This document shows positions 7,434-31,953 of a DNA stretch of 36,319 nucleotides, piece by piece. Under the pieces are notes generated by a model. That model worked only from the letters and a program-made list of their open reading frames with translations. It did no database searches and had not been told where the DNA came from. Source of the DNA: Bacteroidaceae bacterium (GTDB lineage: Bacteria > Bacteroidota > Bacteroidia > Bacteroidales > Bacteroidaceae); assembly GCA_024398405.1 (NCBI GenBank), contig JAKSJE010000015.1, positions 1-36,319 on the forward strand. Reading direction: 5' to 3'. A program made the position numbers and the translations under genes. The first letter of the stretch is position 1. Each line of letters starts with the position of its first letter.

Positions 7434-7675
7434 TCAAAGACTCCCCGGACTGCGGATGAGACTACCATAGACTGCGTTTGAGACTACACACCTGTTAGTA
7501 ACAACTATATACCACCTGTTAGTAACAGGTATATACCACTTGTTAGTAACAGGTATATACCACTTGTTAGTAACAGGTGTATAGTGTTGTCCGTAATCGT
7601 GGATAATGCCATGCGCACCCTTGCGATGTCTCGTGCGTAGTATTGCCGAATGGCGTGCGGTGTGTCAAGTCCTGG
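7434..7675 (-). repeat. Composite dispersed repeat, copy R1
   Basis: This block is an inverted counterpart of the one at 31158-31555. Read on the minus strand it holds, in order, an about 90-bp conserved head (starting CCAGGACTTGACACACCGCA, including GAGACATCGCAAGGGTGCGC), four 24-bp palindromic units, two 22-bp units beginning CGCAGTCT or CGCAGTCC, and a short tail (CCGGGGAGTCTTTGA). It lies between two minus-strand transcription units and holds no credible gene. The head is highly similar between the copies, while the numbers of repeat units differ (4 and 2 here, 8 and 4 there). Confidence 0.85.
7492..7577. repeat. Four-unit palindromic tandem array (24-bp period)
   Basis: Units start at 7492, 7516, 7540 and 7564, an exact 24-bp period. 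Each is built around [C/T]TGTTAGTAACA, mostly CTGTTAGTAACAG or TTGTTAGTAACAG, separated by GTATATACCA-type linkers. The core is a 13-bp palindrome with a single central base. That suits a protein-binding site or cruciform better than an RNA hairpin. There are no unique spacers, so this is not CRISPR. Confidence 0.9.
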
Positions 7676-7715
7676 GGTCCCGTCGGATGTTGTTTGTAGG
7701 ATAATGGCTGACTCG

Positions 7716-7751
7716 AAAAAAGCCAGCCATCATGGAGGTGATGGCTGGCTT
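7716..7751 (-). terminator. Intrinsic terminator of the esterase unit
   Basis: On the minus strand the sequence is a perfect stem, AAGCCAGCCATCA pairing with TGATGGCTGGCTT, with a 6-nt loop CCTCCA and followed by a run of T's. It lies 63 bp after the esterase stop at 7814, exactly where a rho-independent terminator is expected. Confidence 0.93.
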
Positions 7752-7813
7752 GGGATTGTCGCTGAAAAGCATACGGAAGTGTATGCGTTGTGATGTGGGT
7801 ATGAGTCGGTTGG

Positions 7814-9019
7814 CTATTTGAACAGCAACTGTGCGAACTGGTAGAGGCTACGACGCCATGTCTGCCATTCGTGTGCTGTCTCAGGAGAGACGTATGAGTA
7901 TGCGTTGATGCCAATCTCCTTGAGGTCCTGGGCAGCCTTGTCAACTCCCATTCTCTCCTTGCCGCCGCAACTCATGAAGAGCACCTTGTTGGTCTTCTTG
8001 AAGTCATCGGCTTCCTTGAGTTCATCGACGCTGAACGTGCCGCCGCTGAACATTCCCACGTAGGCGAATGTCTTCGGGTTGGCCAGTGTGATGGAGTGGG
8101 TCTGCATGCCGCCCATCGAGAGACCAGCCATCGCGCGGTGCTCTGTGTCTGCGATGACACGGTAGTTCTTCTCGACCATCGGGATGATGTCCTTGAGCAG
8201 GACGTCCTGGAAGGCACCTCCGAAATTGAAGCCACCGAAACCACCACGACGCGGACCGCCCTGACCTGGCGCACCCTGACCCTGTGGACGCTGGCCCTGT
8301 GGACGCTGGCCGCCGAATCCACCGAATCCGCCGAATCCACCTTGAGGCGCCTGCTGTCCTGCCGGACGTGCGTTCAGTCCGTTGTCCATGTAGATGATGA
8401 ACGGAACGGCCTTGCCAGCCGCGATGAGGTTGTCCATGATGATGCCGGTCTTGCCCTGGGCTGACCAACCGGTCTCGTTCTCACCCATGCCATGCTGTAA
8501 GTAAAGCACAGGGAATTTCTTCTTAGGGTTGGAGTAGTATTCAGCAGGCAGGTAGATGTAGCCGTGACGCATGGTCTCCGTGACTGAGGAATAATAATAG
8601 ACTTCGTTGACAGAACCTTGTGGCACGTTCTTCACCGTGTAGAAGTCCTCGTCTGCTGCCGGGATGTCGATTCCGCTTCCCCATCGGCTGGCTCCGTAGT
8701 AGTACTTGCTGCCTGGATCTGGTACGGATGCACCATCGATGTTGAGCTGGTAGTAGTGGAAGCCCTCGTCCTGAGGTGCTGACTCACCGGTCCATACGCC
8801 GTTCTCGTCCTTCTTCATCTCGTATTTCACGCCACCTATGTCAAGCTTGACGCTGTTGGCTTCCGGTGCGGAGATCTGGGCGCGCACCATTCGCTGTGAA
8901 TTGACCATGGGGTATTGCTTACCCTCCTGATTAGTTGATGCAGGTTTGAAATCCTCAGTGACCTGTGCTGTGGCAGCCATTGAAAGCAATGTGGCCGCGA
9001 AGAAAAGTTGTCTTCTCAT
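7814..9019 (-). CDS. Secreted CE1-type esterase (feruloyl/acetyl-xylan esterase-like)
   Basis: This 401-residue protein has a signal peptide (cleavage near ATA-Q at 18-19). Residues 45-130 resemble the Ig/CBM48-like N-terminal domain found ahead of Bacteroidetes CE1 esterases ([16 protein letters not shown]). The alpha/beta-hydrolase part starts near 135 and has the [10 protein letters not shown] loop, the nucleophile elbow GLSMGG with Ser301, and His383 in [11 protein letters not shown]. The acidic residue usually found after CG.K is Glu355 here. Residues about 227-268 are an unusual Gly/Gln/Pro-rich insertion (GGFGGFGG and RPQGQ repeats) inside the catalytic domain. It is likely to release ferulate or related acyl groups from plant polysaccharide in the periplasm or outside the cell. 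A GH43-like gene lies 102 bp upstream and a terminator follows. The exact substrate cannot be read from sequence. Confidence 0.9.
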
Positions 9020-9121
9020 CTGTGTCTGATATTTGAAATGGTAAAAATATTAAGTCCCGCCTCGTCACTCATGGGTCTGAGAAAGAGCAAGTAGTGTGTG
9101 CCTTGAAGTCTGTGCGCCTTG

Positions 9122-31012: not shown

Positions 31013-31106
31013 AGGTGGAGCCTATAAACTCACCGACCGAATAATAGATTCACAATTATGGATTGCATGGCTCTTCTCATGGAAATGAATTCATGGAACC
31101 CACCAT
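31013..31106. mobile_element. MITE-like inverted-repeat element, short copy B (about 94 bp)
   Basis: The left end, AGGTGGAGCCTATAAACTC, and the right end read on the other strand, TGGTGGGTTCCATGAATTC, are imperfect inverted repeats related to those at 4841-5041. The internal sequence (GAATAATAGATTCACAATTATG, then CATGGCTCTTCTCAT) resembles the left half of the element at 35938-36217. The right-hand block AAAGCGGCGAAAAGTTTATT is missing, so this looks like an internally deleted member. Confidence 0.6.
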
Positions 31107-31256
31107 AAACGATTACCTTCGCGGCATCATTGTCAGACAAACCATCTCCGACGGTCGCCAGGACTTGACACACCGCACACCATTTGGCGATACACCGCAC
31201 GAGACATCGCAAGGGTGCGCATGACATTATCCACGACTACGGACAAAACTATGTTT

Positions 31257-31440
31257 CTGTTACTAACAAGTGGTATATACCTGTTACTAACAGGTGGTAT
31301 GCGCTGTTACTAACAGGAGGTATGCGCTGTTAGTAACAGGAGGTATGCGCTGTTAGTAACAGGAGGTATGCGCTGTTAGTAACAGGTGGTATATAGTTGT
31401 TACTAACAGGTGGTATATACCTGTTACTAACAAGTGGGTA
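31257..31440. repeat. Eight-unit palindromic tandem array (23/24-bp period)
   Basis: Units start at 31257, 31281, 31304, 31327, 31350, 31373, 31397 and 31421. Outer units have a 24-bp period with GTGGTATATAC-type linkers; the middle units have a 23-bp period with GAGGTATGCG linkers. The palindrome core is CTGTTA-N-TAACAG, with central base C, C, C, G, G, G, C, C in order. There are no unique spacers and no associated cas genes. Confidence 0.9.
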
Positions 31441-31448
31441 ATGTTAAC

Positions 31449-31536
31449 CGCAGTCTCTGATAGTCTTAAGCGCAGTCTCTGGTAGTCTTAACCGCAGTCT
31501 CTGGCGGTTTTAAGCGCAGTCTTGGGTGGTTTTCTC
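31449..31536 (+). repeat. Four-unit 22-bp satellite (CGCAGTCT units)
   Basis: Units start at 31449, 31471, 31493 and 31515, an exact 22-bp period, each CGCAGTCT followed by CTGGTAGTCTTAA-like sequence that degenerates toward the right. Two related units, also 22 bp apart, occur in the other composite repeat (7447-7476, minus strand). Confidence 0.85.
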
Positions 31537-31953
31537 AGCAGTCCGGGCGTTCTTTGACACAAAAACCGTCAACGGACATCCGCAGCCGAGTGGACGGCTG
31601 ACATTGCTGAGCGTTATTACCGGGTCTTCTTGGATTTGGAGAGTCCACGGAAAAATGCACATGCGCCGTCATCGCCTGCATGACAGTCAGAAAAGGCTTG
31701 GTTCAAATGTATGGAACGCATGGCCTCGTCATGCGCTCTCCCAGGTCTCGTTATGCGAAGTCTCCGACGCGGCTGAGTTTTGTCTGCGCCGTGTCCGTCC
31801 GCTCGCTGTGCGGCGCCTGGACGTTGTCTGTACGGGAGGGTGACGATGGTGCGTCGCCGTAGGTTTCTGACTGGACGGCGACCACACTCGCCCTGCACCG
31901 AACATGAGCGCATGACCGTCCGGGTGCCGATAGGGGATTATTTTCATGTTATA

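Follow-up and report, generated by a model that had tools for sequence, protein, structure and literature searches.

The window analysed here, the whole of a 36,319-nucleotide contig (JAKSJE010000015.1) from a Bacteroidaceae bacterium, carries two inverted copies, R1 and R2, of a composite repeat built around an array of short palindromic units. Its own assembly, called G000 below, consists of 1.7 Mb in 75 contigs and is 60% complete. The IleS encoded in the window finds its five best counterparts among plasmid records in Bacteroides, Phocaeicola, Parabacteroides and Prevotella, at 58-63%, which places the organism in or near Bacteroidales. R1 (7434-7675, + strand) is flanked by a STAS-domain gene and an esterase-like gene, while R2 (31158-31555, - strand) has ileS on one side and on the other a GDP-L-fucose synthase-like gene (476 bits against a cut-off of 500), the two being divergent; nadC (10594-11463) and ileS (27316-30741) do fall between the copies, as a first-pass annotation of the sequence had said. 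The inverted repeat reported there is real: pairwise alignment of R1 with R2 gives 148 nt at 90% identity (7533-7680 with 31153-31300) and 105 nt at 84%, and the longest exact match is 44 nt. Both copies had been located correctly, but the extent given for R2 was too small, since the element reaches from about 30927 to 31667.

In R1 a left-end remnant (cgcatgtacatt, 7423-7434, + strand), identified by eye against the left ends of other copies, is followed by a deletion. Then come two 22-bp units of a satellite that we call B (GACTGCG..., 7448-7487, +; found by eye, the pattern catching one of the two), four 24-bp units of satellite A with the core TGTTASTAACA (7489-7583, +; from the pattern and unit extraction), and a head module (7589-7706, +; from head matches and copy comparison), after which R1 is truncated; most of its left module is gone. 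R2, all on the - strand, is 741 bp long and more complete. Its left module (31530-31667) begins with the left inverted end GGCGCATGTGCAT and contains a terminator-like hairpin followed by a T run (31560-31597), with one mismatch in the stem. Next are four 22-bp units of satellite B plus a degenerate fifth (31437-31546), eight units of satellite A of 23 or 24 bp with the same core (31257-31437), and the head (31120-31244, from head matches). A miniature inverted-repeat transposable element (MITE) of about 91 bp is nested behind the head (31014-31104, from GGTGGGTTC.. to ..CCACC, with TTAT on both sides; seen by eye, related copies being found), and the right module (30927-31013) ends in the right inverted arm (..CACATGC), of which the outermost bases are changed. 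The two arms, 30929-30949 and 31644-31664, match over 21 nt at 95%. The unit counts of the first-pass annotation, four palindromic and two satellite units in R1 against eight and four in R2, hold, apart from the additional degenerate unit. An 11-bp direct repeat, CATGCAGGCGA, flanks R2 (30921-31685) and overlaps its right end; it is possibly the trace of an insertion or recombination event.

The repeat had been described as present in two copies, and this is wrong. In G000 the head matches at 19 places, a 901-bp R2 query yields 76 matching pieces, and the palindromic sequence CTGTTASTAACAR, with at most one mismatch, has 204 matches on each strand, largely at the same sites, whereas its reversed control has only 4 and 5. 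By hand count, 16 arrays are interior to contigs. The copies also break the assembly of this genome, for an array is no more than 150 bases away from at least 29 of its 150 contig ends. Since some of the arrays at contig ends must be halves of one locus, we put the number of loci at about 30 or more. Most elements appear to be intergenic.

In the elements that we call type I, described here in the orientation of R1, the order of modules is fixed: a left end with a terminator-like hairpin, satellite B, satellite A, head and right module. The left end is GGCGCATGTGCATTTTTCCGTGGA, followed by the hairpin with its T run (consensus folding of 11 left modules with alifold gives z = -6.2, and -4.3 for the opposite strand); satellite B has a 22-bp unit of about GAGACTGCGCTTAACATTACCA (by eye) and satellite A a unit of 24 or 23 bp, about CCTGTTASTAACAGGTATATACCA; the head is followed by GATGCTGCAAAGGTAATCATTTAT and by the right module, which ends in ATGCACATGCGCC. 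The left boundary is sharp, as 13 of the 14 left modules examined start at GGC and then GCATG or a one-base variant, and the DNA outside is unrelated; the fourteenth (C33) is truncated. The inverted right end is kept in three copies, C16, C39 and R2, with the outer bases changed in R2; many copies break off instead within or behind a MITE that belongs to a different family (ends GGTGGGTTCTATAAATTC) and sits at TTAT (by eye). A second type of element keeps satellite A, but one of its flanks is different and the opposite side carries a 22-bp satellite of another sequence, C (about GATAATGTCATGCGCTCGCGTT); the C53 locus adds a further 22-bp satellite (about GGTTCATGGTGTGACAATGAAT). Since the type I head begins with a relative of the C satellite (by eye) and the orientation of satellite A relative to the head or C-satellite side is the same in both types, these may share ancestry on that side. 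The repeat is shown to be dispersed and modular: its left end is sharp, its right end, where kept, is inverted, and one genome holds many copies of it.

The strongest lead is the palindrome itself. We extracted 185 satellite A units from 39 arrays, a set that excludes a lone unit at the end of C6, another at that of C47, and arrays found later, such as C54. The units follow each other without gaps at periods of 24 (115 cases) or 23 (31), and the 15 interior arrays that were measured hold 4 to 9 units each. Over the ten arm positions of TGTTASTAACA only 8 of 1850 bases deviate, the centre base being G in 83 units and C in 102. Among the 22 type I arrays, which comprise R1 and R2, there is a single deviation in 1020, and the 15 contig-interior arrays have 5 in 820, all five in C56. 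By comparison, 217 of 1495 bases deviate in the 13-base spacers of the arrays (14.5%), 119 of 1609 in the head (7.4%) and 154 of 1502 in the left module, where the left end alone gives 21/324 and the hairpin stem 8/234. Divergence has thus affected parts of the spacer and most of the remaining element, but hardly the 11-bp palindrome.

We also asked how far the symmetry extends. Going outward, the bases of pair 6 are independent (p = 0.89; 99 Watson-Crick pairs observed against 100.7 expected, of 185) and those of pair 7 show no clear association (p = 0.06 or 0.18 depending on the treatment of rare letters; 52 against 50.4). Pair 8 shows an association (p = 6e-8; 100 against 85.9), which would have spoken for a longer hairpin; however, the signal comes from a shared 12-base spacer variant, and once the units beside a 12-base spacer are set aside it is gone (93 against 90.8, of 138). 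This candidate was therefore rejected, and the symmetry ends at 11 bp. Because pairing beyond 11 bp is no better than chance, a site for a dimeric protein in DNA is favoured over a hairpin in RNA.

The occurrence of the repeat outside its own genome was then considered. The strict array pattern was found only in G000 among 61 genomes, and with any centre base it was again found there alone among 393 genomes drawn from the order. The R2 query matches 4 of 17 genomes of the genus (G000, G004, G012 and G007) and the same four of 399 genomes of the family, two candidates per genome being scored; no whole element was present in any other of these 399. The matches in G004 and G012 concern only the end of the nested MITE. 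G007 has one array of three 24-bp units (L078, 1511-1582) with core TGTTAATAACG and a similar spacer, beside which no match to the other modules of the element was detected. A query with a single satellite A unit (at most 3 mismatches) gives 85 + 96 matches in G000, 5 in G007 and 0-3 in the other 15 genomes of the genus, the reversed control giving 0-8. The diverged array in G007 suggests, from one locus, that satellite A may have been present in the genus before it spread in G000. The search for further copies proposed by the first-pass annotation thus succeeded abundantly within the genome, whereas relatives yielded only the short array of G007, which is diverged, and matches to the nested MITE's ends. 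Among phage and plasmid records there was no match to R2, and virus contigs held no exact match to the array or the left end. In a set of named genomes, possibly without the window's own, the left end occurs in no stretch and the array pattern in three, from an uncultured Bacteroides, Prevotella sp. oral taxon 376 and a Xenococcus metagenome-assembled genome. The first two (L155, 3333-3392; L157, 2757-2818) are arrays of about 22 bp with fewer than three copies, TTACTAACAG-type cores and other spacers, and would be distant look-alikes at most.

From these sequence comparisons we consider it probable, at roughly 0.6, that R1 and R2 are decayed copies of a non-autonomous, MITE-like mosaic element that spread in trans with a captured minisatellite, and that the palindrome is a putative dimer site. 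A short element would have captured the minisatellite and then transposed in trans, with array length altered later by gain and loss of units; the palindrome would be bound by a dimeric DNA-binding protein, so that each array would act as a cluster of operator-like sites 23-24 bp apart. Since the ends and the hairpin of the element have decayed more than the palindromes, we lean slightly towards the putative binding protein being a host factor rather than the element's own mobilisation factor. It is possible, although doubtful, that the mobile element, restricted to one species, sowed dozens of arrays of this palindrome between the genes, and that selection keeps the palindromes as the element around them decays, forming a chromosome-wide network, of recent origin, of dimer sites for a single protein, be it a nucleoid, segregation, regulatory or element factor. 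Among the functions suggested in the first-pass annotation, a protein-binding array and a mobile element find support in the dispersal, the sharp end and the invariant palindrome, while a noncoding RNA does not, as far as the head is concerned. With its variable spacers, the invariant palindrome is a concrete bait (TGTTASTAACA at 24-bp spacing) for finding its protein.

Several observations weigh against this interpretation. Concerning the palindrome, units were counted with at most 2 mismatches in the core, so units with 3 or more changes could have been missed; the 12-base spacers deviate at just 18 of 372 bases, several spacer columns are more than 97% kept, and the best 10-column window of the head (best of 84 windows) has only 1 deviation in 168. 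Spacer variants are shared between arrays, so that units seem to be exchanged, which may mimic constraint, and we know of no protein that binds TGTTASTAACA. Concerning mobility, the element is short, multi-copy and has terminal inverted repeats, as expected of a MITE, but no clear target-site duplication: only C16 and R2 have both ends, none is visible by eye in C16, and R2 has only the above direct repeat of 11 bp, which runs into its end. Neither a transposase nor an autonomous partner turned up, no protein search for one having been made. A reading frame of at least 100 amino acids overlaps 11 of 44 listed elements (rough coordinates), R2 included (31526-31843).

A serious rival, even if we judge it rather improbable, is that the repeat is purely selfish DNA, a MITE-like element with a trapped minisatellite whose arrays have no function and whose core is uniform through recent spread and exchange of units. 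This would agree with the restriction of the array pattern to one genome among those searched, with the many truncated and chimeric copies, and with the identical spacer variants at different loci, the 12-base variant itself being fairly uniform. However, homogenisation should level the 13-base spacers too, yet they are about 30-fold more variable than the core (217/1495 against 8/1850).

We regard it as unlikely that the arrays act as RNA, in the form of long transcribed hairpins that stabilise, process or terminate the transcripts of neighbouring genes. Against single-base shuffles the R2 array alone folds with z-scores of -12.4 (+ strand) and -13.5 (- strand), and R1 with -6.4 and -5.2, but such folding is expected of any palindromic tandem array, and the core alone makes a 5-bp stem with a 1-nt loop. 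The terminator-like hairpin also speaks for a role in RNA, being found in 11 of 13 left modules by a pattern that allows a mismatch (the T run is weak in C71, and R2 has its one mismatch). Terminator scans, limited to loops of 3-8 bases, flagged no hairpin in R1 or R2. A structured RNA in the head was tried and found no support (alifold z of -0.5 and -1.1), and at the gathering score Rfam recognised only a transfer RNA in the window. With pairing outside the core at chance and no conserved fold in the head, a function as RNA is the less likely one.

The first-pass annotation had further proposed that R1 and R2 could recombine and flip the segment from nadC to ileS. The inverted orientation and the 148 nt at 90%, with an exact match of 44 nt, make this feasible in principle, but we think it very improbable that the two are maintained as an inverted pair: many other copies exist in both orientations, so this pair is not special, and no inverted state was seen, the neighbours of R1 and R2 keeping their relative orientation in the congener G012, with other genes between. 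That the repeat is a repetitive extragenic palindromic (REP) sequence or bacterial interspersed mosaic element (BIME) spread by a REP-associated tyrosine transposase is very improbable, since, apart from the clustering of extragenic palindromes that both show, the 11-bp palindrome has neither a GTAG nor a CGTC tag at its foot, is shorter than the 20-40 bp that the relevant part of PMC3733652 gives for REPs and sits inside a carrier with inverted ends.

An empty site was sought in congeners, where the neighbouring genes of R1 and R2 have counterparts of 68-80% identity in G012 or G004. R is absent from both flanks in G012, but the changed gene order leaves no clean empty site there, and the contig of G004 ends just past ileS, leaving the R2 site outside its coverage. 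A promoter-driven model was based on TANNTTTG in the type II flank, which we take to be a Bacteroidales-type -7 box. It is intact in just 3 of 11 copies (by eye), and R2 has a damaged box of this kind; constraint therefore does not act on this part, and the model was rejected. Scans for sigma-70-type promoters gave 3 hits (1.8 in shuffles) and 2 hits (1.5). Outside G000 the type II query found, besides the G007 array, promoter-like stretches of about 46 bases in G015 and G016 (L248, about 1-165, and L249, about 1550-1760, respectively), which adjoin short TCGTAAA-type tandem repeats; the one in G016 precedes a probable sugar phosphomutase gene (by eye). As for a regulon defined by the function of neighbours, the 10 proteins beside interior arrays are mixed, several being carbohydrate enzymes.

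By architecture, the closest analogue appears to be BrickBuilt of Porphyromonas gingivalis. As described in the passages of PMC4596501 that concern it, BrickBuilt is a short MITE with leader and tail modules, inverted ends and an array in which a tandem repeat of 23 nt occurs 1 to 22.8 times; it is intergenic, has long predicted stem-loops, and in ATCC 33277 is present in 19 copies, 8 of them without leader, tail or both. Klein and colleagues proposed for it the capture of a minisatellite and transposition in trans (PMC4596501). The R family shares a tandem repeat of about 23 nt between two end modules with inverted ends, a likeness of architecture. It differs in that at least two carriers have the same array, 22-bp satellites are added, the arrays are shorter (15 interior ones have 4-9 units), the left module contains a terminator-like hairpin, and the exact palindrome of 11 bp hardly varies. 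Moreover, sites present or absent between strains, with 4-nt duplications, are described for BrickBuilt in the same passages, whereas none could be shown for R. The likeness suggests that in these bacteria short mobile DNA may have trapped satellites of about 22-24 bp more than once.

A second comparison, by description, is with the BOX elements of Streptococcus pneumoniae, in which, according to passages of PMC3049150, a tandem run of middle modules, variable in number, lies between the end modules, and other end modules surround the same middle in Streptococcus suis. The R family is likewise a composite of end modules and a variable tandem middle, with one middle and differing ends, but it belongs to different bacteria, and the passages concerned in PMC3049150 do not present boxB as an invariant short palindrome. 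With REP/BIME, as treated in part of PMC3733652, the likeness is limited to clustered extragenic palindromes; the symmetric part of R is 11 bp, without the tag and inside an element with inverted ends, which sets it apart. A literature search with short forms of the palindrome gave, judging by title or the start of the abstract and among the matches listed, nothing that seemed to concern this repeat; a search on intergenic miniature inverted repeats with tandem repeats in Prevotella gave PMC4596501 only, and one on extragenic palindromic repeats in Prevotella gave matches that looked irrelevant. As far as the literature searched goes, the R family is new, and so are an array common to two carriers and an exact 11-bp palindrome that is almost invariant, whereas the architecture was already known.

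The MITE nested in R2 belongs to a family of its own, of which a classic member of about 199 bp, with ends GGTGGGTTCTATAAATTC and TTTA on both sides, lies at 4842-5040 of the window. Among pairs of ends of this family in G000, G004 and G012, 19 of 36 have identical 4-bp flanks (a few of the pairs overlap each other), compared with 159 of the 1260 mismatched pairings used as control; the family of about 199 bp thus has inverted ends with target-site duplication. In this it matches the classic MITEs with 4-bp target duplications, as does, by its ends and TTAT flanks, the copy nested in R2, whereas R itself has no clear duplication and carries satellites. The MITE end is common in 3 of the 17 genomes of the genus, G000 and two congeners (92 + 87, 31 + 28 and 18 + 24 matches), and is at control level in the other 14. 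A longer variant, without identical 4-bp flanks, is seen at 35925-36215 of the window, with 276 or 291 bp between paired ends. The 18-base end also occurs in 6 virus-contig stretches, where with at most 4 mismatches there is no correctly oriented pair of ends closer than 4.7 kb. In two virus contigs (L158, 8882-13593; L161, 4632-9343) an exact and a 4-mismatch match face inward exactly 4711 bases apart; the two are probably the same virus, and the pairing is possibly due to chance.

Finally, the predicted protein encoded at 5045-6793 of the window fuses a MATE-transporter-like domain with a C-terminal histidine-kinase-like ATPase domain, and its gene adjoins the STAS-domain gene (6820-7128).

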